Below are positions 12,396 through 50,724 of a stretch of 64,000 nt of DNA, piece after piece. Position numbers and translations under genes: made by a program. Each line of letters opens with the position of its first letter. Within the stretch, counting starts at the first letter, position 1. Under the pieces are notes generated by a model that was not told the origin of the DNA, did no database searches, and worked only from the letters and a program-made list of their open reading frames with translations. This stretch comes from Planctomycetaceae bacterium (GTDB lineage Bacteria > Planctomycetota > Planctomycetia > Planctomycetales > Planctomycetaceae). The stretch is taken from contig JAKFVC010000065.1 of NCBI GenBank assembly GCA_021732415.1, positions 1-64,000 on the forward strand, given 5' to 3'.

Positions 12396-12742
12396 CGCAT
12401 CACTTTTTTGAGCAATCTGGGTCCCCCTCGGGGATGCACGTGTTGCTCCACAGTCGTTCGAGATGACAGCAACCATCATGACTCGAGGTCGTCTCCGGTA
12501 TTTGATCCAGATGTTACGCTCAGTTGTTGCGGACACCGCATTCCTACATCTATCCGCTCATTTTTCGGGGCAAGCCAAAGCCACGACTTATAGCCGTGGT
12601 CGTTTGCTTTGCTTTTCATAGAGCATCTCATTTCGTTGACTCAACGTGGCTGATCGACGAAGAGGGCAGCCGTGACGTTGGCTAACCAGCAGAGGTTGTT
12701 TACCATCCCACCAGCCGCACACGGCTGCCCAAACTCACAGGA
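12396..12742. other. Intergenic stretch with inverted repeats
   Basis: No gene is seen. It contains a small hairpin around the sequence CCACGACTTATAGCCGTGG near 12583-12601 followed on the plus strand by a T-rich tract, and a larger inverted repeat at 12664-12730, listed separately. Confidence 0.45.
12664..12730. repeat. 11-bp inverted repeat downstream of minus-strand gene
   Basis: GGGCAGCCGTG at 12664-12674 is perfectly complementary to CACGGCTGCCC at 12720-12730, with 45 bases between. The element lies just after the stop of the frameshifted gene that ends at 12743 on the minus strand. It could form a long hairpin acting as a terminator or RNA stabiliser, or be a remnant of a small mobile element. 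No T-tract follows directly. Confidence 0.5.
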
Positions 12743-14818: not shown

Positions 14819-14956
14819 ACGACGAGTTGGATGCCCAGCCTTGAGGTCTCTCGCGTCACGACATCCAGACCATCGGAGATGGTGCGACAAAGTTCCAACA
14901 TCGCGGAGAGACAGGATCCTCGAATGGCGAGCAATGCGTCGGAAAGAAGAAATGAA

Positions 14957-17422
14957 ATGGCGAAAGACCCGATTTGCGGAATGACGGTGGATGAGTCGTC
15001 TCCGCTGCGCGCGGAACGAGACGGGCAGACGTATTATTTTTGTAGCGAACATTGCCGAAAGAAATTCCTCGGGCAATCCCAACCCGCCACGGTCACAACC
15101 GGCAGTCAAGGCGTTGGTTCAGCAAGCCACACGCTGCACGGCCATGCCAATCACGATCATAGCGTTGTGATGGTAAAGCCCGCGGACTCTGCAAAATACT
15201 TCTGCCCAATGTGCTCGGGCGTGGAGTCGGATCAGCCGAGCAATTGTCCGAAATGCGGTATGGCGTTAGAACGCAATCCGGCTTCGATCGCGTCCGCGTC
15301 GGGCAAAACGATTTACACCTGCCCGATGCACCCGGAAGTCGTGAGCGACCAGCCGGGCAACTGCCCGAAGTGCGGCATGGCTCTGGAGCCGCGTACGGTC
15401 ACCGTCGCGGAAGGCCCAAACCTGGAATTGGCGGACATGAGTCGCCGCTTTTGGATTGGACTTGTCCTGAGTCTGCCCGTTTTCGTCCTGGCAATGGGCG
15501 ACATGCTACCCGGCCAGCCGCTGCACCACTTGGTGAGCATGCTGGCGATGAACTGGGTGCAGCTTGCGTTGACCACGCCGGTCGTTTTCTGGTGCGGTTG
15601 GCCGTTCTTCGAGCGGGCATGGGCTTCTATCGTCCACCGCAGCCCCAACATGTTCACGCTGATCGCCCTGGGCGTCGGCGCGGCTTACCTCTATAGCTTG
15701 GTCGCGACTGTCGCCCCTGGGTTATTCCCGGAAGGGTTTCGAGCGATTGGTGGCGCGGTGATGCCGTACTTCGACACTGCCGTCGTCGTGACGGTCCTGA
15801 TTCTGCTTGGTCAGGTTTTGGAACTGAAGGCCCGTAGTCAAACCAGCGGGGCGATCAAGCGTCTGCTCGGCCTGGCCCCGAAGACCGCTCGGCGCGTCAA
15901 GTCCGACGGCACTGAAGAAGACGCGCCGCTCGATCAGGTCCGGGTCGGTGACATGTTGCGAGTTCGGCCTGGTGAAAAGGTTCCGGCAGACGGTGTCGTC
16001 ATGGAGGGCCGTAGCACAGCAGACGAGTCAATGATCTCCGGCGAGCCGATCCCCGCCGAGAAGGAGCTTGGCAGCAAGGTCGTCGCCGCCACGGTCAACG
16101 GCACGGGCGGGCTGCTCATCCGTGCCGAAAAGGTCGGCTCTGACACGCTGCTCGCCCAGATCGTGCGTATGGTCGGCGAGGCACAGCGCAGCCGCGCCCC
16201 GATTGAGCGAGTCGTCGATCAGGCGTCTCGCTACTTCGTCCCGGCCGTCGTTCTTGTCAGCCTTCTGACTTTCGCTGTCTGGAGTATTTGGGGGACGGAG
16301 CCAAAGCTGGCCCACGCTCTGGTGAACTCCGTGGCCGTCCTGATCATTGCCTGCCCATGCGCTCTCGGGCTGGCCACGCCGATGGCGATTATGGTCGGCG
16401 TCGGGCGCGGGGCTGAGAATGGTATCCTCATCAAGAACGCCGAGGCGCTCGAAATTCTGCAACGAGCCGACACGCTCGTGGTGGATAAGACCGGCACGCT
16501 CACCGAGGGCAAGCCCCGTCTCGCTGCCGTCGAGCCCGCCGATGGCTTCACGGCGGACGAAATTCTACGGCTCGCGGCCGGCTTGGAGCGTGGCAGCGAA
16601 CATCCGTTGGCGGCTGCCATCATCCAAGGAGCTGAAGAAAAGCATCTGACCATTCCCACTGCGCAGGACTTTCAGTCCGTCACAGGTAAGGGCGTCACCG
16701 GCACCGTGGACGGTCGCAAGGCCGCCTTGGGCAACGCGGCCCTGATGGGCGAACACGCGGCCGACCTCAAGAGTATGCAGGGCCGGATTGAGGCGCTGCG
16801 CGGCGAAGGGCAAACGGTGATGCTTTTGGAAATCGACGGCCGCTTTGCCGGTCTGATCGGCGTTGCCGACCGAATTAAGGACACGACCCAGGAAGCCATT
16901 CGCCTGCTCCACGAGGATGGGCTGCGGATCATCATGCTGACCGGCGACAGCAAGCGCACGGCCGAGGCGGTGGCGCGGAAGCTGGGCATCGACGAAGTGA
17001 TCGCCGAGGTACTGCCGGGCCAGAAGAGCGAAAAGATCAAACAACTTCAGGCTGAAGGCCGGGTCGTCGCGATGGCGGGCGACGGGATCAACGACGCTCC
17101 GGCGTTGGCTCAGGCACAAGTCGGCATCGCGATGGGATCGGGCACGGACGTGGCGATCGAGAGTGCCGGCGTCACGCTGGTGAAAGGCGACCTGCGGGCC
17201 ATTGCCCGCGCCCGCCGCCTGAGCCGGGCAACGATGAGCAACATCCGGCAGAACCTGTTTCTCGCGTTCTTCTACAACCTGGCCAGCGTGCCGGTCGCTG
17301 CGGGAGTGCTGTATCCCTTCTTGGGCATTCTGATCAACCCGATCTGGGCCAGCGCCGCGATGAGCTTGAGTTCTCTGTCAGTCGTAGGAAACGCGCTGCG
17401 GCTGAGGCACGCGAAACTTTAG
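14957..17422 (+). CDS. Copper/silver P1B-type ATPase with YHS and two HMBD domains
   Basis: A cation-exporting ATPase of about 821 residues. It begins [20 protein letters not shown], a YHS domain closed by FCSEHC, followed by two heavy-metal-binding domains (CPMCSG...CPKCGMAL and CPMHPE...CPKCGMAL). Then come the transmembrane part with the CPC metal site at about residues 466-468, the phosphorylated DKTGT at about 510, and the hinge [13 protein letters not shown] plus HMBD points to Cu(I) or Ag(I) export from cytoplasm to periplasm. An ATG at 14924 with a good AGGA box would add 11 residues and is an alternative start. It follows the sigma/anti-sigma genes, so it is a likely target of them. 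Confidence 0.92.
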
Positions 17423-20099: not shown

Positions 20100-20714
20100 G
20101 TGAAAGAAACGATCTACGTGATGGCAAGAACTTCTCAACAGAGACGGCTGGCAGCGGTCAAGCCAAGGGGAACCGTTGTCGTTTTGTCGGCCGTGGTGTC
20201 CGTCCTTTGTGCCGTCGCCGCACTGGGGTTCGCGGCGTCGCCGGATTCCGGCCAAAGCGCGCCGCTGGAACTCAAGATGCCCGTTTCCCTGTGGACGCGG
20301 CACGAAGCCTTTCACGCGGAGTTCATCAAGGCGACGAAGGACACTGGCAAGGTCGGCGACGCGGCCCGAGCGATCGAGAAATTGGGTGCCACCCATTTTC
20401 CGAAGGCGAAGGATGTGTTCGCGCCGCTCGGACTGTTGCCCCGGCTGGCGGAGGGAAAGTTCACGCCGGAGATGAGCGAGGCGATCAAAGTGGCTGAGAA
20501 ACTAAGGGCCAGCCTGCCGCAGATTCACGGCGAGCACCGCGAACTTTTGGCGGGGCTGAAGAGACTCGGGGAAGCGGCCAAGGAAGAGGGGAAGACGGAC
20601 TACGTGCGCTTCGCTGAAAGTCTGAGCTTGCACATCCAGGAAGAAGAAGAGGTCTTGTACCCGACGGTCCTCCTGATCGGCGATTACGTGAAACGGAAAC
20701 TCGACAAACGGTAA
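20100..20714 (+). CDS. Hemerythrin-like HHE domain protein, exported
   Basis: A protein of up to 204 residues (GTG at 20100; an ATG at 20121 is an alternative). An N-terminal hydrophobic helix VVVLSAVVSVLCAVAALGFA makes it exported or membrane-anchored. The rest is a four-helix hemerythrin-type domain: LWTRHEAFHAEF, THFPKAKDVF, QIHGEHREL and SLHIQEEEEVLYP provide the expected His and acidic ligands for a di-iron or similar site. Such domains bind oxygen, NO or metal. It opens the redox gene group that continues with the membrane Met-rich protein and the reductase, about 115 bases downstream. Confidence 0.75.
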   Translation: MKETIYVMARTSQQRRLAAVKPRGTVVVLSAVVSVLCAVAALGFAASPDSGQSAPLELKMPVSLWTRHEAFHAEFIKATKDTGKVGDAARAIEKLGATHFPKAKDVFAPLGLLPRLAEGKFTPEMSEAIKVAEKLRASLPQIHGEHRELLAGLKRLGEAAKEEGKTDYVRFAESLSLHIQEEEEVLYPTVLLIGDYVKRKLDKR

Positions 20715-20829: not shown

Positions 20830-21642
20830 ATGAGCCATCTGCCTACTCAAACGTCAGTGACGATCCGGCTTGCCTGGCTCGGCGTGTTCGCCGTCTCGAT
20901 CGGACTGGCGTTGGGCATTCCGGGTTACGGACAGTCACCGGAGGAGCACGCAAAGCACCATCCCGCTCAGGACATGGCGAAGGACAAAGGAGGAGCACCG
21001 GGCATGCCCCCCGGCGGCGACGGGCCGGCGAAGGGGATGGGCGGAATGATGGAGGGGATGGGCGAAATGATGAAGGAAATGGGGAAGGCCCCGCCCAAGG
21101 AGTTGTATCCGACCCTGATGAGCCTACCCGAACTGACACCGGAACAGCGGAAGCAAGTCGAGAGTCAGGCGGACGAACGTATGAGTTCGGGTGTGGCCCT
21201 GTTGTCCGAGGGACTGGACCGACTGAGCGAAGCGACGGAGAACGAGGATTACGCGGCCATGCAGGAAGCCACCGCCCAAGTGCGCGAGGCCGTCGCGCAA
21301 TTCGAGAGCGGCCTGGCCGCCCGGCGCGCTCTGGCCGAGGGCAAGCCGCCGCGCCAGGTCGCCCTGCAATGGTTTAAGGATGAAATGAACCTTCAACCGC
21401 CGCAGAGTGTAGAACGTCGCGGCGGTTTCTCTGGAGTCACGCTATTTCACCTCTTCACGATGGTGCTGCTCATCGCGTTCGCGCTGGCGATGGTGGGCAT
21501 GTACTACTTCAAGATGCGTCGCGCTGCAGCCCTCTTTGAGCGTATCGAGACCGACTCGGGATCGCCTCCGCCTGGCTCGGCAGCGCCGCTGGCAGGAACA
21601 GCGCCGCCGCCTGCGGCGGACACCAAGGGGACGCCAGCATGA
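20830..21642 (+). CDS. Membrane-anchored Met/Gly-rich protein
   Basis: A 270-residue protein with a signal peptide (up to about residue 34), a His/Met/Gly-rich region (GMGGMMEGMGEMMKEMGK), a helical domain of about 100 residues, and a C-terminal membrane helix (GVTLFHLFTMVLLIAFALAM) followed by a Pro/Ala-rich tail. The Met-rich part suggests Cu(I) binding outside the membrane. Its stop overlaps the start of the reductase gene by 4 bases (ATGA), so they are translationally coupled and probably act together. Confidence 0.7.
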   Translation: MSHLPTQTSVTIRLAWLGVFAVSIGLALGIPGYGQSPEEHAKHHPAQDMAKDKGGAPGMPPGGDGPAKGMGGMMEGMGEMMKEMGKAPPKELYPTLMSLPELTPEQRKQVESQADERMSSGVALLSEGLDRLSEATENEDYAAMQEATAQVREAVAQFESGLAARRALAEGKPPRQVALQWFKDEMNLQPPQSVERRGGFSGVTLFHLFTMVLLIAFALAMVGMYYFKMRRAAALFERIETDSGSPPPGSAAPLAGTAPPPAADTKGTPA

Positions 21643-22781
21643 GCAAACTGACGACCAAACCAACCGCGTCGCATGCGAAAGTTGCCAAAGCTGCCCCGCC
21701 AAAGGAAACGGAGGCGATCGCGCCGTTGCCAGTGGCCGAGAATTGGCGCGGGCACCTTCGCGTCGGGAGCATCATCACAGAAACGCCCGGCGTGAAAACG
21801 TTTCGCCTCGTGCCTTCGTCCAGCGACCGCTTGCTCCCTTTCACATTCGTGCCCGGTCAGTTCCTCAATGTCGCGTTCTGGATTGGCGGCGCGAGAATGA
21901 ACCGCTCATACTCCATCTCATCCTCCCCGACGCAGCGCGAATACATCGACCTGACCGTGCGGCGCGAACCACGGGGCGCGGTCTCCCGTCACATCGTTGA
22001 TTTGCTCAAGGTGGGCGACCAGATCGAAGCGGCAGGCCCGGTCGGAAAATTTACGTTTGACGGAACAGAGGCGGACAGCATCGTCCTCATCGCAGCCGGC
22101 GTGGGCATCACGCCGATGATGAGCGTCACCCGGTATCTCACGGAGCGATCCTGGGCCGGAGAGATCTTCTTGATTTTCACATTCCGCAAACCAGCCGACT
22201 TCATTTTTGCGAACGAGATCACGGCGATTCAACGCGTGAATCCAAAGTTGCACGTCGCGGTCACGGTGACGAGAGCGGAAGGGACGGACTGGAAGGGCTC
22301 CCGCGGACGCATCACCAAGGAACTGCTCACACAGACGGTTCCCGATCTGGCTTCGCGGAGAGTCCACGTGTGCGGGCCGCAGTCGATGATGGAGGCGACC
22401 AAGGCCATGCTCACCGAGCTAGGCGTGGCTCCGGACCAACTGAAGACCGAAGCGTTTGGCGCAACCAAACCCGCCCCGGCCGCCGCCGGAACCGCCCTGA
22501 AACCAACAGCCGAGGCCACAGGCCCGCTGGTCACGTTTTCAACGAACAACAAGTCGGTCAAGATTCACGTCGATCAGACGGTTCTCGAACTCTCCGAGGA
22601 ACTCTCCATCGGCATCGAGAACTCTTGCCGCGTCGGCACCTGCGGCCTGTGCAAGGTGAAGATGACGTCCGGCGAGGTCGAGATGGCCGTCGAGGACTCT
22701 CTCACGCCCGACGACAAGGCCAACGGCATCATTCTCGCCTGCCAGGCGAAGCCGAAGAGCGACATCGTGGTGGAGGCGTAG
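21639..22781 (+). CDS. NAD(P)H:ferredoxin-type reductase with C-terminal 2Fe-2S domain
   Basis: A 380-residue flavoprotein of the ferredoxin-NADP reductase family. The FAD site is RSYS at 89-92, the NAD(P) site GVGITPMMS at 154-162 and CGPQSMM at 245-251. A plant-type 2Fe-2S domain follows with cysteines at 330, 335, 338 and 368. The layout is that of Hcr or phenol-hydroxylase type reductases. An N-terminal Ala/Lys-rich extension of about 35 residues is extra. It moves electrons from NAD(P)H through FAD to the iron-sulfur centre, and from gene order the next acceptor is probably the membrane cytochrome encoded 2 bases downstream. Confidence 0.88.
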   Translation: MSKLTTKPTASHAKVAKAAPPKETEAIAPLPVAENWRGHLRVGSIITETPGVKTFRLVPSSSDRLLPFTFVPGQFLNVAFWIGGARMNRSYSISSSPTQREYIDLTVRREPRGAVSRHIVDLLKVGDQIEAAGPVGKFTFDGTEADSIVLIAAGVGITPMMSVTRYLTERSWAGEIFLIFTFRKPADFIFANEITAIQRVNPKLHVAVTVTRAEGTDWKGSRGRITKELLTQTVPDLASRRVHVCGPQSMMEATKAMLTELGVAPDQLKTEAFGATKPAPAAAGTALKPTAEATGPLVTFSTNNKSVKIHVDQTVLELSEELSIGIENSCRVGTCGLCKVKMTSGEVEMAVEDSLTPDDKANGIILACQAKPKSDIVVEA

Positions 22782-22783
22782 CC

Positions 22784-23527
22784 ATGAAAGAACGCGATCG
22801 CATCATCGCCGCCAGCATCTTCGGCGTCTTGCTGTTTGCCTGGCTGGGCTTCCTCGTCCACACTTCGCCGCGCTTCGCAGGCAGCGGAGTCGGGGCGTTC
22901 TTCGGGATCGCGGGGGCCGTGCTCATGCTTGTGCCGCTCGCCTATCCGATCGTCAAACGCATTCGCTTCGTCAATGCAAGGATCACGCCACACGTTTCTC
23001 TCCAGTCGTGGATGACGGTGCATGTCTACGCCGGCATTCTCGGTCCTCTGCTGGGAATTATTCACACCGGCCACAAGTTCGACAGTTGGCTGGGAATCAC
23101 GTTGACGGCAGTGATGCTCCTCGTCGTCGTGAGCGGGTTCATCGGCCGCTATCTGCTGACTTACGTCAGCCAGGACATCAAAGACAAGCTGCTGCTCTTG
23201 CAGACGGCCAGGGGCGATCTGGATAGCGCATGGGGGGCGCTCCAGAACGCGCCCCCGGAGCTGCGTACACTTCCGAAGATGCGTCTCTTGGTCGCCGGCC
23301 TGGCGTCGTTGGGACTCGATCTTCAAATCGGCGGGCCAGCCGGCGAGGTCACCAAGCTTGCCGAATCCGTGGCGGACTTGGAGTTCGCGATCCGCACGCA
23401 CGAGCTGTTCAAGCGCTGGTGCAGCCGCTGGCTGAACCTGCACCTCGTTCTCTCCGTCATCCTCTACGTGTTGCTCGCACTGCACGTGTGGGCGGGAATC
23501 CATTTGGGATTGAGGTGGCTCTCATGA
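22784..23527 (+). CDS. Five-helix membrane protein, putative b-type cytochrome
   Basis: A 247-residue membrane protein with about five helices. Histidines at 80, 94 and 97 in the third helix region and at 220, 234 and 240 in the last helix are placed as in di-heme cytochrome b domains, so two b hemes spanning the membrane are likely. A soluble loop of about 85 residues separates helices four and five. It sits between a 2Fe-2S reductase and a multiheme cytochrome c, with 2-base and overlapping (ATGA) junctions. The simplest reading is a transmembrane electron conduit from the cytoplasm to the periplasm. Heme binding is inferred, not shown. Confidence 0.7.
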   Translation: MKERDRIIAASIFGVLLFAWLGFLVHTSPRFAGSGVGAFFGIAGAVLMLVPLAYPIVKRIRFVNARITPHVSLQSWMTVHVYAGILGPLLGIIHTGHKFDSWLGITLTAVMLLVVVSGFIGRYLLTYVSQDIKDKLLLLQTARGDLDSAWGALQNAPPELRTLPKMRLLVAGLASLGLDLQIGGPAGEVTKLAESVADLEFAIRTHELFKRWCSRWLNLHLVLSVILYVLLALHVWAGIHLGLRWLS

Positions 23528-24357
23528 AACTGCGAACGGCATTTCTTTATGCGGCCATCGTACTGGCCTTGCCTGTGATCGGGTTCTTGACGTTTTCCTC
23601 GCACTACTCTCATCATCGGGATCAAACGGCGGCTGTGATTGTCTCACTCGCCTTTTGGCAGCACATGGTGAGTCCCGGTGAGTTGTCGCAGGCCCACGCG
23701 TCGTTGGAGAATAATTGCGCGGCCTGCCACACACCGGTCAAGGGCGTCGAGGCGCAGAAGTGCATCATCTGCCACGCCAACAATGAGTCGTTGCTGCAGC
23801 GCCAGCCAACCGCGTTTCATGCCAACGTGAGCAGTTGCGTCGAGTGCCACCGCGAGCATCGGGGGACCGATCAGCGCCCGAACGAAATGAACCATCTGGC
23901 GCTGGCCGAGATCGGTTTCCGCCTTTTGAAAACCGACCACCCACCAGCCGGTGAAAACGAACGAGTGCGGAAAGACCTGCTCGACTGGATCGGCCAACAT
24001 CAGCCCGCGAGCCAAGGGTCGGAAGGCCATTCGAGCCTCACCCCAGAGGAAGCGGTCTTGAATTGTGCGACCTGCCATTCCAATAAGGATCGGCACGTCA
24101 AACTGTTCGGCCAGGATTGTGGCCAGTGCCACACGACGGCGAAGTGGACGATCCCGGAGTTTCGGCATCCGTCGCCAAATTCCAAGGACTGCGCACAGTG
24201 CCATCAGGGGCCGCCGAGCCATTACATGATGCACTTTCAAATGATGTCGGCCAAGGTGGCGGGCAAACCGAAGGCGCAGGTCAATCAGTGTTTCCAGTGC
24301 CACCAGACGACGGCATGGAACGACATTAAAGGCATTGGCTATTACAAGCACCATTAG
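23524..24357 (+). CDS. Heptaheme c-type cytochrome
   Basis: A 277-residue protein with an N-terminal membrane segment (FLYAAIVLALPVIGFLTF) and seven CXXCH heme sites at residues 65, 80, 105, 181, 199, 223 and 256 (CAACH, CIICH, CVECH, CATCH, CGQCH, CAQCH, CFQCH). Extra histidines spread through the chain can serve as sixth ligands, as in cytochrome c7/c3-type proteins. The start ATG overlaps the stop of the cytochrome b gene. It is probably anchored to the inner membrane facing the periplasm, taking electrons from the cytochrome b and reducing an unknown acceptor, possibly metal ions, in view of the neighbours. Confidence 0.88.
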   Translation: MKLRTAFLYAAIVLALPVIGFLTFSSHYSHHRDQTAAVIVSLAFWQHMVSPGELSQAHASLENNCAACHTPVKGVEAQKCIICHANNESLLQRQPTAFHANVSSCVECHREHRGTDQRPNEMNHLALAEIGFRLLKTDHPPAGENERVRKDLLDWIGQHQPASQGSEGHSSLTPEEAVLNCATCHSNKDRHVKLFGQDCGQCHTTAKWTIPEFRHPSPNSKDCAQCHQGPPSHYMMHFQMMSAKVAGKPKAQVNQCFQCHQTTAWNDIKGIGYYKHH

Positions 24358-26770: not shown

Positions 26771-28396
26771 ATGCCAGCTTCCGAAATCATTCAGGCCAAG
26801 GCAGCGGGGCACGTCGATACTCCCGCTCCTACTCCTGTGCAGGTAGCGGAACCTTTCGCCTTGATTATTTTCGGAGCTACCGGGGCTTTGACCCACAGTA
26901 AGCTGCTCCCGGCGCTGTTCAGCCTGTGGCAAGGCAACTTCTTCGGCACGCCTTTCATCATCGTTGGGGTGGGCCGGCGCGACAAAACCGATAACCAGTT
27001 CCGTGATGAACTTCGTGACGCAGCCGAGACGCACGACCGTATACATGCCAGCGACCGGAATGCATGGGAGAGCTTTGCCGAAAATGTCATCTACCATCGG
27101 TCGGACTTCACCGTCGCGGAGAGTTACAGTACGCTGGCCGAGCGTCTCCAAGGGCTGGAAAAGGAGCGCGGGCTTGGCGGAAACCGCCTTTTTTATCTGG
27201 CTACCGACTCCGACCAGTTCGCTCGGATCATCAAAGAGCTCGCCGCTGTGGGCTTGGTTCAGCGGGAAGCGACGCAGCCCTGGACGCGGGTCGTAGTCGA
27301 GAAGCCCTTCGGCAAGGATGTAACGAGTGCCCGCACACTGGACGAGGACATCCTACGCGTTCTACACGAGGAGCAGATTTTTCGCATCGACCATTACTTG
27401 GGCAAGGAGACGGTGCAGAACCTCCTGTCGTTTCGCTTCGGCAACGCCATATTCGATCCACTTTTCAATAGCCGCTATGTCGATCACGTTCAGATCACGA
27501 TGGCCGAGGTCGACGGCATGGAGGGTCGGCGAGGTGCCTATTACGACGGGGCTGGGGCTTTGCGGGACGTCGTGCAGAACCATCTTCTGCAGTTGCTGGC
27601 CCTAGTGGCGATGGAGCCGCCCGCGTCGCTGGGGGCGAAGGATGTCCATGACGAGAAGGTGAGAGTACTGCGTCAGCTCGTGCCTGGAGGGGGAAAAGAC
27701 GGGAGCGGCTGGGTAGTGCGCGGCCAGTACGGCACAGGAACAAGGGAGGGCCGGCCAGCACGCGCCTACCGCGAGGAGGAAGCGGTCGCCACGAACTCCA
27801 CCACCGAGACCTACCTGGCGCTGCGTCTGGGAGTGGATACTCCGCGCTGGGCTGGCGTCCCGTTCCTACTGCGAACCGGCAAAGGACTGGCCCGGCGGGT
27901 GACGGAGATTGCCATCGAGTTCAAGCAGGCACCATTGCGTCTTTTCACCGCGGCGACGCAGAACGGAGACCTATGCGATCGGACTTGCAACTGCGGAGCC
28001 GATTGTCGATGCGGCATCGCTTACGCGGAGCCCAGCGTTTTGGCGTTTCGCATCCAGCCGGATGAGGGGATCAGCCTGTCATTCTCGGCCAAGCAGCCGG
28101 GTATGCAACTGGTGCTACAGCCGGTGCGGATGGATTTCCTCTATGGGCAATCGTTTAAGCAAGCCCTGCCCGAAGCCTACGAGCGGCTGCTGCTGGATGC
28201 GCTGCGGGGTGACTTGACCCTATTCATGCGGTCCGACGAGGTGACGACGGCCTGGGAGTTCGTGACACCGATCCTGGAGGCGTGGGAGCGACAGCCTGCA
28301 CCAAACTTTCCCAACTACGCGGCCGGAAGCTGGGGGCCGGTCGAGGCAGACCGGCTCCTGAGCGGGTGCCAGCGGGAGTGGCGTCAATTCCAGTAG
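26771..28396 (+). CDS. zwf: Glucose-6-phosphate dehydrogenase with Cys cluster
   Basis: Oxidises glucose-6-phosphate to 6-phosphogluconolactone with NADP+, the main entry to the oxidative pentose phosphate pathway. The nucleotide site is seen in LIIFGATGALTHSKLLPAL, the catalytic core in RIDHYLGKETVQN, and VVVEKPFGKD nearby. From the ATG at 26771 it is 541 residues, longer than usual members of about 490-510. Part of the difference is an insert after the FKQAPLRLF strand, with C402, C406, C408, C412 and C414 (CDRTCNCGADCRCG), before the normal FRIQPDEGISL. The CxC pattern resembles metallothionein. An ATG at 26708 is an alternative start. It sits among metal-resistance genes, so it may supply NADPH under metal stress. 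Confidence 0.9.
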   Translation: MPASEIIQAKAAGHVDTPAPTPVQVAEPFALIIFGATGALTHSKLLPALFSLWQGNFFGTPFIIVGVGRRDKTDNQFRDELRDAAETHDRIHASDRNAWESFAENVIYHRSDFTVAESYSTLAERLQGLEKERGLGGNRLFYLATDSDQFARIIKELAAVGLVQREATQPWTRVVVEKPFGKDVTSARTLDEDILRVLHEEQIFRIDHYLGKETVQNLLSFRFGNAIFDPLFNSRYVDHVQITMAEVDGMEGRRGAYYDGAGALRDVVQNHLLQLLALVAMEPPASLGAKDVHDEKVRVLRQLVPGGGKDGSGWVVRGQYGTGTREGRPARAYREEEAVATNSTTETYLALRLGVDTPRWAGVPFLLRTGKGLARRVTEIAIEFKQAPLRLFTAATQNGDLCDRTCNCGADCRCGIAYAEPSVLAFRIQPDEGISLSFSAKQPGMQLVLQPVRMDFLYGQSFKQALPEAYERLLLDALRGDLTLFMRSDEVTTAWEFVTPILEAWERQPAPNFPNYAAGSWGPVEADRLLSGCQREWRQFQ

Positions 28397-28458
28397 AACC
28401 ACGGCGATGAAGGTTGAACAGCCTGTTTCATCCTTCCTCTTGGATTGGAGACGGCTGC

Positions 28459-29832
28459 ATGGCCCAACCCTTATACGACGATATGCTGGACTCCCTTCAA
28501 CGAGATGCGTTCGGTTACTTCGTAAATGAAGTGAACCCCGCGAATGGATTGGTGAAGGACTGCACCCGCCCGGGCTTTCCGTCCAGCATCGCCGCCGTCG
28601 GACTGGCTCTGGCGGCTTATCCAGTAGGCGTCGAGCGGGGGTTGCTGAAGCGCACGGCGGCGGTGTCGCGGACGCTGACGACCTTGCGCTTCTTCTGGAA
28701 CAGCCCCCAAGGGCCCGAGTCGGATGCCACCGGCCACATGGGGTTCTACTATCACTTCCTTGACATGGAAACAGGACGGCGCGCCGGGGACTGTGAACTG
28801 TCCACCATTGACACGACGATCCTGCTCGCAGGGGCGCTGGCCGCCGCCTTGTACTTTGACCGGGACGTGGGTGAGGAGCGCGAGGTGCGGGAATTGGCGG
28901 ACACCCTCTACTGCCGCACAGACTGGAAGTGGGCACAGAACGGGGAGTCGACGGTCACACACGGCTGGAAGCCGGAGGGCGGGTTCCTGCCGTATCGTTG
29001 GCGGGGCTATGATGAGGCCACGATCCTCTATCTCTTAGGTCTCGGCTCGCCGACGCATCCCCTGTGCGTGGAGAGCTACATGGCGTACACATCGACCTAC
29101 AGTTGGAAGAACATCTACGATTACGAGTTCCTGTACGCGGGACCGCTTTTCATCCACCAATACTCGCACGTCTGGATCGACTTTCGTGGGATCCAGGATG
29201 AGTACATGCGTGCCAAAGGCATCGACTACTTCGAGAACAGCAAACGGGCGACGCACGTGCAGCAGGAATACGCAATCCGCAATCCGCTCCAGTTCCGGCG
29301 CTCCTGCGGGTGCCACCAGTGCGAATGCTGCTGGGGAATTACCGCCAGCGACGGCCCAGGCCCCACAACGCTAATTATTGACGGTATCGAACGCCGCTTT
29401 TTTGATTATCTGGGCCGCGGCGCGCCCTACGGACCCGACGACGGCACCATCGCTCCATGGGCCTCGGCCGCGTCCTTACCTTTTGCCCCGGAGATTGTTC
29501 TGCCGACGATCGAACACATGGTCCAACTTGGCGTCAAGCAAACGTCATGCCGGTACGGGCTAGTGGGCAGCTTCAATGCGACGTTCCCCGGGCCGACGCC
29601 CCTTGGCTGGGTATCTCCCTGGAATTATGGGCTCAATCAGGGCCCGCTGGTCCTGATGGTAGAGAACTACCGCTCAGGACTCATTTGGAGCTTGATGCGC
29701 CGTTGTCCGTATCTGATCGCAGGACTTGAACGGGCAGGTTTTTCCGGCGGCTGGTTGGAGAGTGATCGGGCCACGTCCAGGTCGGAGCCTACGGCTGCTT
29801 CTGATGGCCTTCATGTTCCTGACCGCCCATGA
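28459..29832 (+). CDS. Glucoamylase-family (PF10091-like) protein with Cys cluster
   Basis: A protein of about 457 residues related to the bacterial glycoamylase-like family, usually an alpha/alpha-barrel: DAFGYFVNEVNPANGLVKD, FYYHFLDMETGRR, DTTILLAGAL, IHQYSHVWIDFRGI and WGITASDGPGP. It has no signal peptide. In place of the few residues before WGITASDGP it has five cysteines, C283, C285, C288, C290 and C291 (SCGCHQCECC). The ATG at 28459 has a GGAGA box; an upstream start at 28414 lacks one. It follows the dehydrogenase gene by 62 bases, and its end overlaps the convergent multicopper oxidase gene by 44 bases. Activity on alpha-glucans or beta-glucans is unknown. Confidence 0.8.
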   Translation: MAQPLYDDMLDSLQRDAFGYFVNEVNPANGLVKDCTRPGFPSSIAAVGLALAAYPVGVERGLLKRTAAVSRTLTTLRFFWNSPQGPESDATGHMGFYYHFLDMETGRRAGDCELSTIDTTILLAGALAAALYFDRDVGEEREVRELADTLYCRTDWKWAQNGESTVTHGWKPEGGFLPYRWRGYDEATILYLLGLGSPTHPLCVESYMAYTSTYSWKNIYDYEFLYAGPLFIHQYSHVWIDFRGIQDEYMRAKGIDYFENSKRATHVQQEYAIRNPLQFRRSCGCHQCECCWGITASDGPGPTTLIIDGIERRFFDYLGRGAPYGPDDGTIAPWASAASLPFAPEIVLPTIEHMVQLGVKQTSCRYGLVGSFNATFPGPTPLGWVSPWNYGLNQGPLVLMVENYRSGLIWSLMRRCPYLIAGLERAGFSGGWLESDRATSRSEPTAASDGLHVPDRP

Positions 29833-31357
29833 TTTTGTCGTACAATTCCGGCGGTAGCACGCGTAAGACGGTGAAGAGACCTTCGATCGCCATCGACCAG
29901 CCGGGACGCATGCCCATCGCTTCGCGTCGGCCCTCGACTCGGTCCGCGCCTTCCATCCCTTCCATGCCTTTCATTCCCTCGTGGCCGGCCATTGGCTTTT
30001 GTGCGGCTTCGGGTTTCATGTTCATCTTGCTGTGATCGGGTTCGCCGTTCGATTTCAGGGGTGTTTTCTTCTGTGGCATGTCTTTCATGTCGTGTTTTTT
30101 CATGTCCATGCCCTTCATGTCCGCACCGGGCATCTTCATGTCTTTCATGTTGGGCATGGCCATGCCCAACATGACTTGCGGATACCCTTTCACTTGGAGT
30201 TGCTCAGGCGTGGAATTGTCGCGGATCAACGGGCCGGCTTGAGACGACATCGAGTTCATCATGTGGTGGAACATGTGACAGTGCAGCCCCCAATCCCCTG
30301 GGTTGTTGGCGATGAACTCGACTTCACGCACCTGGGCCACTCCGACCAACACGTTGTTGCTCGGATACCAAGCCGACTCCGGCAGGCGGCCGCCCTCGGT
30401 GCCCGTAATCCAGAACGTATGCCCGTGAAGGTGCAGGGGGTGGTGGTCCATCACGCTGAAATCCAGGAAGCGAATTCGCAAACGCTCACCCAACTTGCAC
30501 AGCAGCGGAGTGGTGAGCGGGCCGCAGCGGCCATTCAGCGTCAGGAAATTCCATTCCATGGACAGCGTGTCCGGAACGGTCGAATTCGGACGCAGTTGAA
30601 ATCCCTGAGCGATCAGGACGAAATCGCGATCCACCGCCGGCTCGTGAGTCTTGGCGGGATACACAATGAAGAGGCCTACCATGCCCATCGCTTCCTGCAT
30701 ACCTTCGTGCGAGTGATAGAAAAACGTCCCCTCTTGATGAACCGTCCATTCGTAGGAAAACTCTTGCCCCGGTTCGATAGTATCCTGATTCAGGTACGGA
30801 ACCCCATCCATGTCGTTGGGGAGTTCCAGCCCGTGCAGATGCAGCGTGGTCGGCTCGGGGAGTTTGTTGTGCAAGACAATTCGAACGCGATCGCCCTGAT
30901 TGAGTTCAATGGTCGGTCCAGGCATGTCTCCGTTGTAGCCGTAGGTGTCCATCCACACGCCGGGCAGGATTTCCCGGCGCACTGGCTCGGCAGTCAAATG
31001 AAACTCTTTAGCTCCGTCGACATCTTCCCAAGGCAGTTTCTGCAGGTCGGGTGCGTGGATCGGAACTGGCGGCAACGTGGCATCGCGATAGCCCGGCACC
31101 AGCTTGCCGCGGTCGGTGGGACTTCCGACTGGTCCGCCCAAGCCAGCGTGGGTGCGGGGATACTCGACCGCATCGTTTTCAGCGACAGGAGGCTGGTGCT
31201 TCTCATGCTCGCCTTGCGGCGGTTTGGCCATTGGGCTATCGCTGGGCTGTTCGGCGAGCTTTTCTTGCGCACGTCCCAATGCCGTGCCAGCCACGAGAAT
31301 GCCTGCTGCGGTCGCACCCTTGACGAGAAAGTTTCTGCGATCGTCGGGATGGGTCAT
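29789..31357 (-). CDS. Multicopper oxidase, Tat-exported, Met-rich tail
   Basis: A protein of about 522 residues. RRNFLVK near the N terminus is a Tat signal, as usual for folded copper enzymes. The copper motifs appear in order: HLHGLELPN, FFYHSHEGM, HPLHLHGHTFW and GLHCHMFHHM, which make up the T1 and the trinuclear T2/T3 sites. A long C-terminal tail is very rich in Met, Lys and His (KDMKMPGADMKGMDMKKHDM), as in CueO/PcoA-type cuprous oxidases. A GGAG box precedes the ATG at 31357. It probably oxidises Cu(I) to less toxic Cu(II) in the periplasm. Its end overlaps the convergent glucoamylase gene by 44 bases. Confidence 0.92.
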   Translation of the reverse strand: MTHPDDRRNFLVKGATAAGILVAGTALGRAQEKLAEQPSDSPMAKPPQGEHEKHQPPVAENDAVEYPRTHAGLGGPVGSPTDRGKLVPGYRDATLPPVPIHAPDLQKLPWEDVDGAKEFHLTAEPVRREILPGVWMDTYGYNGDMPGPTIELNQGDRVRIVLHNKLPEPTTLHLHGLELPNDMDGVPYLNQDTIEPGQEFSYEWTVHQEGTFFYHSHEGMQEAMGMVGLFIVYPAKTHEPAVDRDFVLIAQGFQLRPNSTVPDTLSMEWNFLTLNGRCGPLTTPLLCKLGERLRIRFLDFSVMDHHPLHLHGHTFWITGTEGGRLPESAWYPSNNVLVGVAQVREVEFIANNPGDWGLHCHMFHHMMNSMSSQAGPLIRDNSTPEQLQVKGYPQVMLGMAMPNMKDMKMPGADMKGMDMKKHDMKDMPQKKTPLKSNGEPDHSKMNMKPEAAQKPMAGHEGMKGMEGMEGADRVEGRREAMGMRPGWSMAIEGLFTVLRVLPPELYDKIMGGQEHEGHQKQP

Positions 31358-31461
31358 TTCGATCTCCAGGCAGTAGCCAGCTAATACGACAAGACTTTGC
31401 GGCGTCGCGGCCAGACCGCGAACTCTCATGCGTTCCAATTCAAACCAGCCCGCATGCAGTC

Positions 31462-32973
31462 TTAGCGCGGCCTGGGTGTGGCGTCGATGTGTCCGCCACC
31501 GACCGCTGCGGGCGGTTCCGTCAGCCCGCCGGTCAGCAGCATTCCGCGGATGGCAATATCGGATTCACGATATGTCTTGAGGCTATCGACGAATTCGGTT
31601 TCAAGCGTCATGTGCAAGCGCTCCGCGGTGAGCACTTCGACCCATGTGGCCCGCCGATCTTTGTAGCTTTGCCGGAGTAGCTCGGTGGCCTCTTTGGCCT
31701 TCGGCAGCATCGTGGCCTGGTACTCTTCGACATGCTGCCAGGCAGAGAGGTAGGTGCGGTACTCGGCGGCCAAACGCGTTTGCAGGTCCAACTCCAGCCG
31801 CCGCGCATCGGCGTGCGCACGGTTGAGGTCGGCTTGGGCCTGTTGGATCGTGCCTTTATTTTGGTCGAAAACTGGGATCGGTAACCCGATGTTGACGCCG
31901 GCCGTGGTGCCACCAGACTCGAAGTTGCGACCGACTCTGGCATCGACGAGCACATTCGGAATCGGCTGAACTTGTTCGCGTTCGAGTTGGATTTCATCGT
32001 GTCGAATCTTCTGACAGGCAGCCACCAGTTCAGGACTGCTACTCAACAACTGTCCGAGGGCCGAGTCATAGTCCAGCGGCTCTTGCGTGGTTGCCAGTTG
32101 ATCTTCCAGCGTCGTCGATGAAAGCTGCGGAATTCCCGCCAAGGCGGACAGCCTGCGCCAAGCCTGTTGAGTGTCATTCTCGGCGTCCTTCAACTTCAAC
32201 TGATCGCGTCGCAGTTCCACCTCGGCCTGCAACACGGCCGATGCCGTCGTCTGGCCCAGGTTGAACATTTCGCGGTGTGTTTGGAGATTGTCTTCGCCGT
32301 TAGCGACCAACTTCTGCTGAATCTCAACGACACGCTGCGCGGCGACCGTGCGATAGAATTGCGCCCGAACGTCATTGAGCACGCGCTGTTGTTGGGCTTG
32401 TGCGTTGGTCGCGGCGATTTGCGCGCGCTGCGCATATTTGGCGCGACTCAGACGCAGCTTTCCGCCGGTGACGATCTCCTGCGACACAAAGCCGCCCTGC
32501 GTTTCGCCGGCAGTCCCATTGACACCAATTTGTTCGCTCGTGTAACCGACCACCGGATTGAACGGCAGGCCGGCCTGATACGCGGCACCCTGCTCTCCTT
32601 GCAATTGGGCATTTGCCTGGACCAGCGTCGGATTGTTGCCCATTGCCATGACCTCCAGATCCTGCAACGTCAACACCGCGTGCTCTTCGGTTGACACGAC
32701 GGGTGGGATTTCGTGTTCGGCATGCGATTGCGGCTGCGGGAGTTCCTCTTGATGGGCAACCAACTGGGTCTGCGCTGCGGAGATCGCAACCGTTCGATTA
32801 ACAGCCTCGTGAGCAGAAACGGGTGTGTTCGACACCTTCGAAACCGGTCGAGTCGCGCCAGAGTTAACACGCTTTGCACGTGAAATGCTGCGAGATGACG
32901 CGGTGGCACAGCCGCTAAAAACTAATGCCAAAAGGAGTAAGGTCGTGACGAGATGTCGATTTATGCTCATCAT
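31462..32973 (-). CDS. TolC-family outer-membrane efflux lipoprotein
   Basis: A 503-residue outer-membrane factor. It starts with a signal peptide ending in the lipobox VFSGC, then a Ser/Arg/His-rich linker, and two long coiled repeats typical of TolC (for example ENDTQQAWRRLSALAGIPQL and WQHVEEYQATMLPKAKEATE). It forms the outer tunnel of RND metal pumps, like CusC or CzcC. It is one of two such genes here, both on the minus strand downstream of the RND pump and adaptor. A short gap of about 100 bases separates it from the multicopper oxidase gene. Confidence 0.88.
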   Translation of the reverse strand: MMSINRHLVTTLLLLALVFSGCATASSRSISRAKRVNSGATRPVSKVSNTPVSAHEAVNRTVAISAAQTQLVAHQEELPQPQSHAEHEIPPVVSTEEHAVLTLQDLEVMAMGNNPTLVQANAQLQGEQGAAYQAGLPFNPVVGYTSEQIGVNGTAGETQGGFVSQEIVTGGKLRLSRAKYAQRAQIAATNAQAQQQRVLNDVRAQFYRTVAAQRVVEIQQKLVANGEDNLQTHREMFNLGQTTASAVLQAEVELRRDQLKLKDAENDTQQAWRRLSALAGIPQLSSTTLEDQLATTQEPLDYDSALGQLLSSSPELVAACQKIRHDEIQLEREQVQPIPNVLVDARVGRNFESGGTTAGVNIGLPIPVFDQNKGTIQQAQADLNRAHADARRLELDLQTRLAAEYRTYLSAWQHVEEYQATMLPKAKEATELLRQSYKDRRATWVEVLTAERLHMTLETEFVDSLKTYRESDIAIRGMLLTGGLTEPPAAVGGGHIDATPRPR

Positions 32974-37594: not shown

Positions 37595-40500
37595 TTACGG
37601 CTTTGCCTCACGCCGATTCTCCGAAGGTGATGCGGGAGCAACCGTTGGCGGTGCGCCGGTTGGGGCGGCTGAACTCGTCTTGTCGTTGAGTTTCGGTTCT
37701 GGGACTGCGGCTTGCCGAGTCGGATGTGGAGCGGCCATCACAACATCCTGTCGAGTGGCCGTGCCGGAGGAAGTCGCGTTAGTTTTGGTTCTCTCATAGA
37801 CCTTGCGGCCGAACTTAAAGAACAAGGCGGGCGTGACAACTTGGTCGAGGATCGTTGAGGTCAACATGCCGCCGAAGACGACGAGCGCGAGCGGGTAGAG
37901 AATTTCCTTGCCGGTCTGCCCCGCTCCGAACAGCAGCGGCAGCAGGCCGATGAAGCTGGTCATGGCGGTCATCATCACGGGTGCGAGACGCTCCAAACTG
38001 CCGCGTACGATCATCTGTTCGGAAAAGGTCTCGCCTTCGTGCTGCATCAGGTGGATGTAGTGCGAGATCATCATGATACCGTTGCGGCTGACGACTCCGA
38101 TCAGCGTGATGAAACCGACCCAGTGAGCGACTGAGAGGCTCGTCGCGCTGACCCAGACGCGGGGCCAGTCCCACCACGGCGCAACTTGTAGCGCGGACCA
38201 CTCCGGGCGATTCACGATCAACAGTGCCAGCACGGAACCGAACGCGGCGAGCGGGATGTTGACCAAGACTTGCACCGCGGCGCGCCAGGAATCGAGTGCC
38301 TTGCAGAGCAGCAAGAACACGCCCAGGATGCTGAGCGCACCGAGAATCGCGAGTCGACGATTCGCCTGCTGCTGAGCCTCGAACTGGCCGCTGTATTCGA
38401 GGTAGTAGCTGCCGGGTAATTTTCGCAGGTTGTCTTCGACTGGCGTGAGCGCCTGCTTGATGTCGGCGACGACGCTGGCGAGGTCACGGCCTTGTGTGTT
38501 GCAGAAGACGACGATGCGGCGTTGAACGTGTTCGCGATTGAGCGTGTTCGGACCCGTGGTGTCGAGCACTTCGGCGACCTGTCCCAGCGCGACGCGGCGA
38601 CCGGAGGGTGTTTCGAGGATCGTTTCGTTAATGACGTCGGGATCGCTGCGCGAGTCGGCGTCGTACCAGACGACCAGACCGAAGTAACGGTCCTCGTCGA
38701 GCACCTGCGAGACCACTCGCCCTTTGTAGGCGGTCTCCAAGAGTTCGGCGACGTCTCCGGGAGCCAGTCCATAGCGGGCGGCTTCGTCGCGTTTCACCTT
38801 CAATCGCACTTGCGAGATTTCGACTTGCGGCTCAATCTGTAAATCGACGATACCGGGGATCGGCTGCATGCGTTCTTGAATGTCATAGGCGGCCGTGCGG
38901 AGTTCGCGTAAATCCTGGCCGAAGACTTTGACCGCGATTTGGGCGCGGATGCCGGACATCATGTGATCCAGGCGGTGCGAGATCGGCTGACCGATGTTCA
39001 CGGCGGCTCCGGGGATATTCGAGATGCGGTCGCGCACCGCGGCGATGACTTCTTCGCGCGGACGCCCCACGGAATCAAAGCCCCAGAGGTGCGCAATGGG
39101 TACTAATCGCAACACCGCAAACCCCCAGCCTGGTTTCGGCGGACGATGTTCGGCAAGTCGCACATCGATTTCGGACGAGTTGACTCCCTCGGCGTGCTCG
39201 TCCAGTTCCGCGCGGCCCGTGCGGCGCGAAACAGAGAGGACTTCCGGCACATCCAGGATCAATCGCTCGGCTCGCTCGGCGACGCGTTGGCTTTCGTCGA
39301 GGCTGGTACCGGGCTCCATCCGCAAACTAATGGTCAACGTCCCTTCGTTGAACGGCGGCAGGAACTCGCCACCCATCCACAGAATGCTCGTGCAGGACAC
39401 CGCGACCAGCACGGCGACAAAGCTCAGAATCAGCGTTGCGTGGCGCAGCGTGAATCGCAGCACTGTCGCATCGACGCGTTTCAGCCAACGTAGAAATAGC
39501 GGGTCTTTTTCTTCATCCAGGAGCTTTGCTTGCGGCAACAGGAACGACCCGAGCACGGGCGTGAACGTGAGCGACACCACCAACGAGCAGAGCAGAGCAA
39601 CGATGTACGCGATGCCGAGCGGGGCGAACATGCGGCCCTCCAAGCCAGCCATCGAGAACAATGGAAACATGACCAGAATTACGATCAGCGTTGCATACAC
39701 GATCGAGTTCCGCACCTCGCACGAGGCGTCGTAGATCACGTCCAGGGGCGAGCGTTGTTGGCTGACCGGGAGCTGCCGGTTCTCTTTCAACCGACGGTAG
39801 ATGTTCTCGATATCCACAATTGAATCGTCCACCAGATCACCGATCGCTACCGCGATTCCTCCCAGCGTCATCGTGTTGATCGTGATGCCGAACCAGTGGA
39901 ATACGAGCACGGTCAGCAGAATCGACAGCGGCATAGAAGTCAGCGAGCTGAGACTCGTGCGGAAGTTGCCCATCAACAGGAACAGCACGACGATGACCCA
40001 CAACGCTCCGTCGCGAACCGCTTCGGTGACGTTCTCGACGGCGGCTTCGATGAAGTCGGCCTGCTTGAAGATGCGACGTTCGATCACGACATCTGGCGGC
40101 AATTCCTTCTGCAACGATTCCAGCACGTCGTCAATCTTGCGGTCGAGTGCCAGGGTATCGGCGTTCGGCTGCTTCTGGACGGTCATGATGACGGCCGAGC
40201 CGCCGCTGATTTTCGTCGTCGTGGCTGCTTCGTCGTCTTTCTCGCCATCGCTGTGCTCATGGTCTGCTTCATGTTTGTCGTGACTATGTTTCGACGGCTC
40301 AACATGACTGCTTTTCTCGCGACCAGCCTCGCCATGACTGTCCACAGGCGGGTCGGCTTCAGCGTGCCCGTGCGGTTGCGATTCACGAACGGCGGCATTC
40401 ACGTCGGGTTCGAGCTTCACCCACGCACTGCCGTCGCCCCGCTTGACGGGCCCCCCGAAACGGACATCGGCCACGTCCTTAATCCGCACGGGCATTGGCT

Positions 40501-41275
40501 CGCGCCACAGTACCGGCGTGTTTTCGATCTCCTCCAGCGTCAGGCTTTGTCCGCTGATCCGCAGCAGCGACTCCTTCGGCGACCGGACCATGATGCCTCC
40601 GCCCGCGATGACGTTGGCTTTTTGAGCCGCATCGGTGAGCTGTTGCAGCGTGATGTTTTGAGCCGCCAGTCGCGCGGGCGACGTGATGATCTGATATTGC
40701 TTGAGCACACCGCCCATGACTGTGACTTGCGACACGCCTCCGACCGCCAGCAACCGATTGCGCAACGTAAATTCCCCCAGCGTTCGCAATTCCATCGCCT
40801 TTGCCGCTTGTTCTTCGGGAGACTTCAATTCGGCGGTGGACCGCAGACCGAGCAGCATGATCTCGCCCATGATCGAGGAGATCGGAGCCATGACTGGGTT
40901 GGTGTCGGCGGGCAACCGCTCGCGAGCCAGTTGCAGTTTCTCCGCGACGATCTGTCGGTCGCGAAAGATATCGGTACCCCAATCGAACTCGACCCACACA
41001 ATTGACAGCCCGATGCCCGATGCCGACCGCACCCGCTGCACGCCGGTGGCTCCGTTGAGCAGAAACTCGATGGGCCGCGTGACCAATACTTCGACTTCTT
41101 CCGGCGCGAGGCCGGCCGCCTCGGTCATAATCGTCACCGTCGGACGATTGAGATCGGGGAATACATCGACGGGCATCTCGCGCAGCAGGATCACTCCGTA
41201 GACCATGACCACGAGCGACCCAATTAGCACGAGGGCGCGATTCTTCAGAGAGAAAGAGATGATCCAATTCAGCAT
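37595..41275 (-). CDS. HME-family RND heavy-metal efflux pump (CzcA/CusA type)
   Basis: A 1226-residue inner-membrane pump. It opens MLNWIISFSLKNRALVLIGS with the HME signature VDVFPDLNRPTVTIMTEAAG, and has the 12-helix, two-periplasmic-loop RND pattern with DDSIVDIENIYRRL in helix four. It exports divalent or monovalent heavy metals using the proton gradient. In the first periplasmic loop, about residues 285-358, is an insertion rich in His and acidic residues (KHSHDKHEADHEHSDGEKDD) that is not typical for CzcA or CusA and likely binds metal. It is 12 bases downstream of the fused adaptor gene. Confidence 0.9.
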   Translation of the reverse strand: MLNWIISFSLKNRALVLIGSLVVMVYGVILLREMPVDVFPDLNRPTVTIMTEAAGLAPEEVEVLVTRPIEFLLNGATGVQRVRSASGIGLSIVWVEFDWGTDIFRDRQIVAEKLQLARERLPADTNPVMAPISSIMGEIMLLGLRSTAELKSPEEQAAKAMELRTLGEFTLRNRLLAVGGVSQVTVMGGVLKQYQIITSPARLAAQNITLQQLTDAAQKANVIAGGGIMVRSPKESLLRISGQSLTLEEIENTPVLWREPMPVRIKDVADVRFGGPVKRGDGSAWVKLEPDVNAAVRESQPHGHAEADPPVDSHGEAGREKSSHVEPSKHSHDKHEADHEHSDGEKDDEAATTTKISGGSAVIMTVQKQPNADTLALDRKIDDVLESLQKELPPDVVIERRIFKQADFIEAAVENVTEAVRDGALWVIVVLFLLMGNFRTSLSSLTSMPLSILLTVLVFHWFGITINTMTLGGIAVAIGDLVDDSIVDIENIYRRLKENRQLPVSQQRSPLDVIYDASCEVRNSIVYATLIVILVMFPLFSMAGLEGRMFAPLGIAYIVALLCSLVVSLTFTPVLGSFLLPQAKLLDEEKDPLFLRWLKRVDATVLRFTLRHATLILSFVAVLVAVSCTSILWMGGEFLPPFNEGTLTISLRMEPGTSLDESQRVAERAERLILDVPEVLSVSRRTGRAELDEHAEGVNSSEIDVRLAEHRPPKPGWGFAVLRLVPIAHLWGFDSVGRPREEVIAAVRDRISNIPGAAVNIGQPISHRLDHMMSGIRAQIAVKVFGQDLRELRTAAYDIQERMQPIPGIVDLQIEPQVEISQVRLKVKRDEAARYGLAPGDVAELLETAYKGRVVSQVLDEDRYFGLVVWYDADSRSDPDVINETILETPSGRRVALGQVAEVLDTTGPNTLNREHVQRRIVVFCNTQGRDLASVVADIKQALTPVEDNLRKLPGSYYLEYSGQFEAQQQANRRLAILGALSILGVFLLLCKALDSWRAAVQVLVNIPLAAFGSVLALLIVNRPEWSALQVAPWWDWPRVWVSATSLSVAHWVGFITLIGVVSRNGIMMISHYIHLMQHEGETFSEQMIVRGSLERLAPVMMTAMTSFIGLLPLLFGAGQTGKEILYPLALVVFGGMLTSTILDQVVTPALFFKFGRKVYERTKTNATSSGTATRQDVVMAAPHPTRQAAVPEPKLNDKTSSAAPTGAPPTVAPASPSENRREAKP

Positions 41276-50628: not shown

Positions 50629-50724
50629 AAGAAAGTCGCAGACTTGTGTTGTGCCCTTGCGCAATTCCGATGCGTTTCACGATGAACGATGCACCGGCTG
50701 AAAACTCACTGTCAGCACATTCCC

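Follow-up and report, generated by a model that had tools for sequence, protein, structure and literature searches.

A conserved metallothionein-like cysteine loop in a putative glucose-6-phosphate dehydrogenase of planctomycete copper-resistance islands

A putative glucose-6-phosphate dehydrogenase (G6PD) encoded in the copper-resistance region of a planctomycete contig carries a metallothionein-like thiolate loop that, judging from sequence variation among 11 genomes, is held by purifying selection. The window analyzed here is the whole 64,000-nucleotide stretch of contig JAKFVC010000065.1 from a Planctomycetaceae bacterium. Its features, together with related features in other genomes, are collected in Table 1. 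The cluster had been noticed in a sequence-only reading of this DNA, and we recovered it exactly: the 39 bases encode CDRTCNCGADCRC in frame within the G6PD open reading frame, with five cysteines in 13 residues and CxC spacing. Assuming a Cys content of 1.2%, about 0.0007 five-Cys 13-mers would be expected per whole proteome, and a search of the 9.87 Mb genome with the CxCGxxCxCG DNA pattern gave a single match. The oxidative pentose phosphate pathway, the cell's main NADPH-making route, begins with G6PD, and the presence of a conserved loop in the G6PD of a copper-resistance operon suggests that NADPH supply is tied to metal load. In the literature searched, we found neither a G6PD with a metal-binding insert nor a G6PD described from a copper island, and no case of G6PD activity coupled to metal through a built-in site.

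The island G6PD and its cysteine loop

The open reading frame is assigned as a putative G6PD by curated family models and by its substrate-binding and catalytic motifs. Pfam identified a full-length protein (G6PD_N, PF00479, E 2.6e-57; G6PD_C, PF02781, E 1.2e-109), the NCBIfam zwf model TIGR00871 scored 577.9 bits against a cutoff of 400.6, and a motif scan located RIDHYLGKE, QNH, RTGK and the fingerprint Lys. An AlphaFold2 model of the monomer, built from 76 homologues, had a mean pLDDT of 88.6 and was matched by solved G6PDs at a TM of about 0.8–0.9. The nearest solved structure was the Synechocystis G6PDH–OpcA complex (9emm), and the Synechocystis G6PDH is 44% identical to the island protein. 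In length, fold and the three motifs the island G6PD resembles other Zwf proteins, from which it differs by a 12-residue Cys-cluster insertion, an extra C-terminal Cys and, in the subtype A described below, a GxxGAL fingerprint. The genome also encodes a second G6PD, a plain-loop housekeeping paralogue with 50% identity to the island copy (G000:C24:31913-33403).

The loop that contains the cluster was poorly modeled, with pLDDT blocks of 56–62, the lowest of the model except for the N-terminus. Across 86 distinct aligned G6PDs, the majority of them from Planctomycetota, the stretch that links the LF strand to the RIQPDEG strand varied in length, spanning 28 to 51 residues in the aligned segment. 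The earlier reading had assumed a short, Cys-free connection in other family members. This was correct for most of the aligned G6PDs, including those from Chloroflexota and many from Planctomycetota, but not for the Pirellulaceae housekeeping copies (the G000:C24 copy of the window genome among them), which have two Cys in the sequence TVECxGDxCxL. In the alignment, the second Cys of this pair matches the first of the cluster, after which comes the 12-residue insertion; the first Cys of the pair is missing from the Cys-cluster form. By this alignment, one of the two ancestral Pirellulaceae loop cysteines appears to have become the first Cys of the cluster. All 11 Cys-loop G6PDs have one further Cys, the sixth, near the C-terminus; it was found in none of the 26 plain-loop rows of the tree described below, and in 2/83 other G6PDs in the wider set.

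Likeness to metallothioneins, which had also been claimed, holds at the level of the motif. The seven-Cys unit of the fungal Cu-thioneins of Neurospora and Agaricus, [CxC]-x5-[CxC]-x3-[CxC]-x2-C, has in common with the C-x3-[CxC]-x3-[CxC] arrangement of the G6PD loop the element [CxC]-x3-[CxC], with small intervening residues (PMC4755600). Unlike the fungal proteins, the G6PD loop has only five or six Cys, is located inside an enzyme and is a putative metal site, and we claim no homology between them. The CxC-based thiolate spacing typical of metallothioneins was present as C-x3-CxC-x3-CxC in 11 genomes. Metallothioneins are small, stand-alone Cys-rich proteins, whereas here the 13-residue cluster is part of a 562-residue enzyme. 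From its sequence, the island protein is best described as a previously unreported form of G6PD with a metallothionein-like motif, and not as a metallothionein.

Distribution, conservation and genomic context

A first scan of GTDB contigs yielded two close relatives, 82–83% identical, with the cluster loop. Of the matches to the CxCGxxCxCG pattern, which include many unrelated or shadow ORFs in other genomes, only those inside G6PD were counted. With a looser DNA pattern, 11 of 398 genomes sampled from the class matched, and the reversed-pattern control gave one match. All 11 loci recovered had the Cys loop at the equivalent place in G6PD. Two subtypes could be distinguished: subtype A, LCDRTCNCG[AP]DCRCGIA, in the window's own genome (G000), G369 and G708, and subtype B, LCDRGCDCG[AP]TC[EG]CC[NH]AG, which has six Cys, in G408, G418, G491, G527, G563, G566, G593 and G637. 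The carriers span three families (f1, f4 and f101). No further Cys-loop G6PD was found in a phylum-wide sample; its one extra pattern match, in G198, was rejected as a short unrelated ORF.

The 11 Cys-loop G6PDs and 26 plain-loop rows were used to build a tree from which the loop columns were omitted. The Cys-loop proteins formed a single clade with support of 99/94, and its sister rows were plain-loop f101 G6PDs with the sequence TVECxGDxCDL. The housekeeping G6PD of G369 fell in a distant group, so the island copy in that genome was probably acquired horizontally. No plasmid G6PD reached 60% identity, so no plasmid carrier was found, and the glycoamylase was on no viral contig. All five loop Cys were invariant in the 11 genomes, and five of the eight other core positions varied. 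Among the 11 proteins, pN/pS was 0.23 for the core and 0.35 for the rest of the protein, and the Cys codons showed synonymous changes between lineages. In the subtype A core, 7 of 14 codons had changed but only one residue had.

Subtype A also differs in the coenzyme fingerprint. The Asp of GxxGDL is otherwise invariant, but is replaced by Ala (GATGAL) in the window, G369 and G708 alone; subtype B retains GATGDL. GxxGDL is a conserved fingerprint, although the G6PD family models do not require it. Since an otherwise invariant residue is lost, catalysis could be altered in the subtype A enzymes. The human coenzyme contact at this site is described as a main-chain one (PMC8973466), so the substitution need not abolish catalysis.

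The gene lies in a region for copper and heavy-metal resistance (the sequence-only reading had placed it in a copper-resistance block), with a Cu-type P-ATPase, a multicopper oxidase, two CusA/CzcA pumps and their adaptors, efflux porins and a ferric-reductase-like protein. The frame at 21540-22778 was rejected as a ferric reductase, since Pfam identified it as an FAD/2Fe-2S oxidoreductase, and ORF 22370-23524 and some other listed frames were discarded as shadow frames. Upstream of the copper block, at 11955-12461 on the minus strand, is the remnant of an alpha-glucan phosphorylase gene, degraded and interrupted by an internal stop.

The insert was unique to metal islands in our sample: genes of one conserved, syntenic, copper-linked operon flank all 11 Cys-loop G6PDs, and none of the 83 other G6PDs aligned has the five-Cys cluster. 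(Three of the 11 islands are on contigs of 5.5–8.2 kb, which give a narrow view of their surroundings.) A multihaem cytochrome c gene is found near the Cys-loop G6PD in nine of the islands. The remaining two are cut off by a contig end close to G6PD; of these, the G708 island has the glycoamylase and multicopper oxidase genes in view and the G593 island has the multicopper oxidase and a SLOG-YHS gene. The multicopper oxidase is present near G6PD in eight islands. Two of the remaining three are on contigs of 5.5 and 7.3 kb, and in the third, G566, no multicopper oxidase was found in the 19 kb of sequence covered. The FAD/2Fe-2S oxidoreductase, the hemerythrin-like protein and an efflux porin recur in many of the islands, and a PF10091 glycoamylase gene lies next to G6PD in four genomes. 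Among the plain-loop loci, 52 records were searched, and other island genes were matched in only two, one match being a partial P-type ATPase and the other a distant RND pump; the records include some genes twice and most cover about 1.5 kb on each side, a weaker comparison than that among the islands.

Table 1. Features of the window and of related loci in other genomes. Positions without a prefix are those of the window.
Feature	Position	Strand	Basis
Copper-type P1B ATPase with YHS and HMBD metal-binding domains	14831..17419	+	Pfam; TIGR01511 599 bits, above cutoff
Hemerythrin-like protein, conserved in several islands	20100..20711	+	Pfam, synteny
NAD(P)H-dependent FAD/2Fe-2S oxidoreductase, conserved upstream in islands	21540..22778 (open frame, start codon not fixed)	+	Pfam FAD_binding_6, NAD_binding_1, Fer2; synteny
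Multihaem cytochrome c, conserved upstream of G6PD	23227..24354 (open frame)	+	Pfam Mtrc-MtrF_II-IV_dom, Cytochrom_c3_2; synteny
Putative island glucose-6-phosphate dehydrogenase (zwf type), 562 aa	26708..28393	+	Pfam, NCBIfam, AF2 model, PDB fold match
Coenzyme fingerprint GATGALTHSK in island G6PD	26873..26902	+	Motif scan, comparison of Cys-loop G6PDs
Variable loop TAATQNGDLCDRTCNCGADCRCGIAYAEP, between strand ending FKQAPLRLF and strand SVLAFRIQP	27947..28033	+	Alignment, AF2 model
Cys cluster CDRTCNCGADCRC (C-x3-CxC-x3-CxC), residues 423-435 of G6PD	27974..28012	+	Translation, 11-genome comparison
C-terminal Cys (SGCQREW), sixth Cys of island G6PD	28367..28369	+	Alignment of Cys-loop and plain-loop G6PDs
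PF10091 glycoamylase-family gene, adjoining G6PD	28414..29829	+	Pfam E 1.1e-75; synteny
Cys cluster CGCHQCECC in glycoamylase, directly before WGITASDG (conserved WGxTASDG segment)	29305..29331	+	Comparison of islands
Multicopper oxidase	29789..31438	-	Pfam Cu-oxidase_3, Cu-oxidase_2
Outer membrane efflux protein	31462..32973	-	Pfam OEP
CusA/CzcA-family heavy-metal RND pump	37598..41275	-	TIGR00914 716 bits, above cutoff
Ferric-reductase-like transmembrane flavoprotein	49291..50664	-	Pfam Ferric_reduct, FAD_binding_8, NAD_binding_1
SLOG cluster4-YHS protein	L172:8233-9072; L175:3848-4669; L181:5717-6529	-; +; -	
Alpha-glucan phosphorylase with N-terminal YHS, in or near Cys-loop G6PD operons	L172:4859-6805; L175:6141-7292; L183:1504-3381	-; +; +	

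Proposed function and alternative explanations

We take the cluster loop to be equivalent to the loop of human G6PD that contains Cys385 and Arg387. From the alignment and the known human sequence, it is presumably located just before the dimer-interface strand with the residue equivalent to Arg393; the sixth Cys presumably lies in the C-terminal tail that in the human enzyme completes the structural NADP+ site. We infer from these placements that the cluster loop is at the region homologous to the structural NADP+/dimer site. In human G6PD, Cys385 and Arg387 are near both the structural NADP+ and the dimer interface, and their substitution makes the enzyme less stable (PMC11641639); the structural NADP+ itself is contacted by Arg393, Tyr401 and Tyr503 (PMC8973466). 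The site has been described as restricted to higher organisms (PMC8973466), so the homologous bacterial surface may not be allosteric, and an allosteric role for this region in bacteria is hypothetical.

The best overall explanation is that the loop binds Cu(I) or a different soft metal and thereby adjusts the supply of NADPH within an operon for copper defence, a proposal that we consider evenly balanced between right and wrong. On its separate parts, the loop probably binds metal, and metal binding might well exert an allosteric effect on the enzyme, which we judge slightly short of an even prospect; activation is the favoured direction of the effect. In this scheme, a thiolate loop would have been grafted into a duplicated G6PD, which joined a transferable copper-defence operon. 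Cytosolic Cu(I), most likely, or another soft metal would bind to the loop, perhaps jointly with the C-terminal Cys. Once loaded with metal, the loop would become ordered and either the stability of the dimer or its activity would shift, making NADPH output track the metal load. Consumers of this NADPH would be the operon's NAD(P)H-dependent FAD/2Fe-2S reductase and multihaem cytochrome, as well as thiol repair; electron flow from NADPH to the reductase and the cytochrome is plausible. If this is true, metal load would set NADPH supply by a post-translational route beside the usual transcriptional metal sensors, the structural NADP+/dimer region would become testable as a control point in a bacterial enzyme, and the loop would offer a natural template for an NADPH source that responds to metal.

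Mercuric reductase, MerA, offers a parallel: it is an NADPH-linked enzyme of a metal-resistance operon with a built-in N-terminal metal-binding domain, which delivers the metal substrate. The island G6PD would follow the same idea, with the difference that MerA consumes NADPH, whereas G6PD makes it.

We considered the possibility that the loop is a protective buffer that binds stray Cu(I) or Cd, making the island G6PD a metal-resistant but unregulated isozyme while the plain paralogue is poisoned. The genome does keep a plain-loop second G6PD, and the gain of metal-binding motifs by several unrelated island enzymes fits a general protection strategy. However, a single loop of five or six Cys would have little capacity, and with its fixed spacing and a C-terminal Cys conserved alongside it, the loop looks more like a defined site than a sponge for metal. 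We consider this explanation rather unlikely.

OpcA has a redox role in the control of cyanobacterial G6PDH, and the closest solved structure is that of a G6PD under this extra control. The loop could similarly be a thiol redox switch, in which disulfides formed under oxidative or copper stress turn G6PD on or off, as in the redox-regulated cyanobacterial and plastid enzymes; a C-x4-C pair was already present in the ancestral Pirellulaceae loop. Control of the Synechocystis enzyme is exerted by a separate protein, whereas the candidate site of the island G6PD is built in. However, OpcA (PF10128) was undetected in 10 of the 11 Cys-loop genomes, including the window's own (G708 gave the only match, and control genomes were positive as expected). 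Furthermore, CxC-x3-CxC is a metal–thiolate spacing, and the Cys-cluster form lacks the first Cys of the ancestral pair. We regard a redox switch as improbable.

A structural Zn (or Fe-S) knuckle, which would stabilize the dimer or dock a partner such as the reductase without any sensing, would explain why the spacing is fixed and why the C-terminal tail has a sixth Cys, and in homologues the loop precedes a dimer-interface strand. Ordinary G6PDs fold without the cluster, however, and in our sample the cluster is seen only with the copper operon, which makes a purely structural role quite improbable. That the cluster is a neutral or random insert in a highly variable surface loop is hardly credible, despite the variable loop length across the family, because the conservation data contradict it: five Cys were kept in 11 lineages through synonymous changes in their codons, core pN/pS is below that of the rest of the protein, and loop variation elsewhere in the family never yields the cluster.

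Metal motifs on other proteins

Taken together, the metal modules across the island carbohydrate enzymes are a more novel lead than the G6PD loop alone. The sequence-only reading had mentioned neither these modules nor the ancestral Cys pair and the sixth Cys of G6PD. At the site of the Cys cluster in the glycoamylase, three other islands have CxCC, and the congener copy has GYGENC, with a single Cys. In G566, G593 and G637, the Cys-loop G6PD adjoins a SLOG cluster4 (LDcluster4) protein that has YHS as its C-terminal domain, and next comes a beta-CASP hydrolase with the sequence CPLCC. In G566 and G637, the hydrolase is in turn followed by an alpha-glucan phosphorylase with an N-terminal YHS domain; in G418, the YHS–phosphorylase fusion is beside the beta-CASP hydrolase on a contig other than that of G6PD. 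Extending the tuning of NADPH supply by metal to these enzymes, the islands might form a metal-gated carbon-to-NADPH module, in which the glycoamylase, YHS-phosphorylase, SLOG-YHS protein and G6PD each bear a metal element and soft metals would switch storage-sugar breakdown and NADPH production, powering metal reduction and repair. We put this forward as a speculative and, on balance, unlikely extension.

The beta-CASP metallo-hydrolase (L172:6846-8237, minus strand) has an identical CPLCC stretch in the Cys-loop G6PD operons of three genomes. In other Planctomycetia, Cys-rich proteins with repeated CxCGxxCxCG motifs were seen at L080, L081 and L070. These free-standing proteins, e.g., CGTDCQCGISCQCG and PCGPSCACGADCPC, share the motif of the G6PD loop but, unlike G6PD, are small, Cys-rich non-enzymes in which the motif is repeated; from their sequences, they are possible metallothioneins. 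Finally, the C-x4-C pair (VECxGxxC) is common to the Pirellulaceae housekeeping G6PDs (L015-L042), in the loop homologous to the cluster loop, and may be a disulfide or a metal site of its own.
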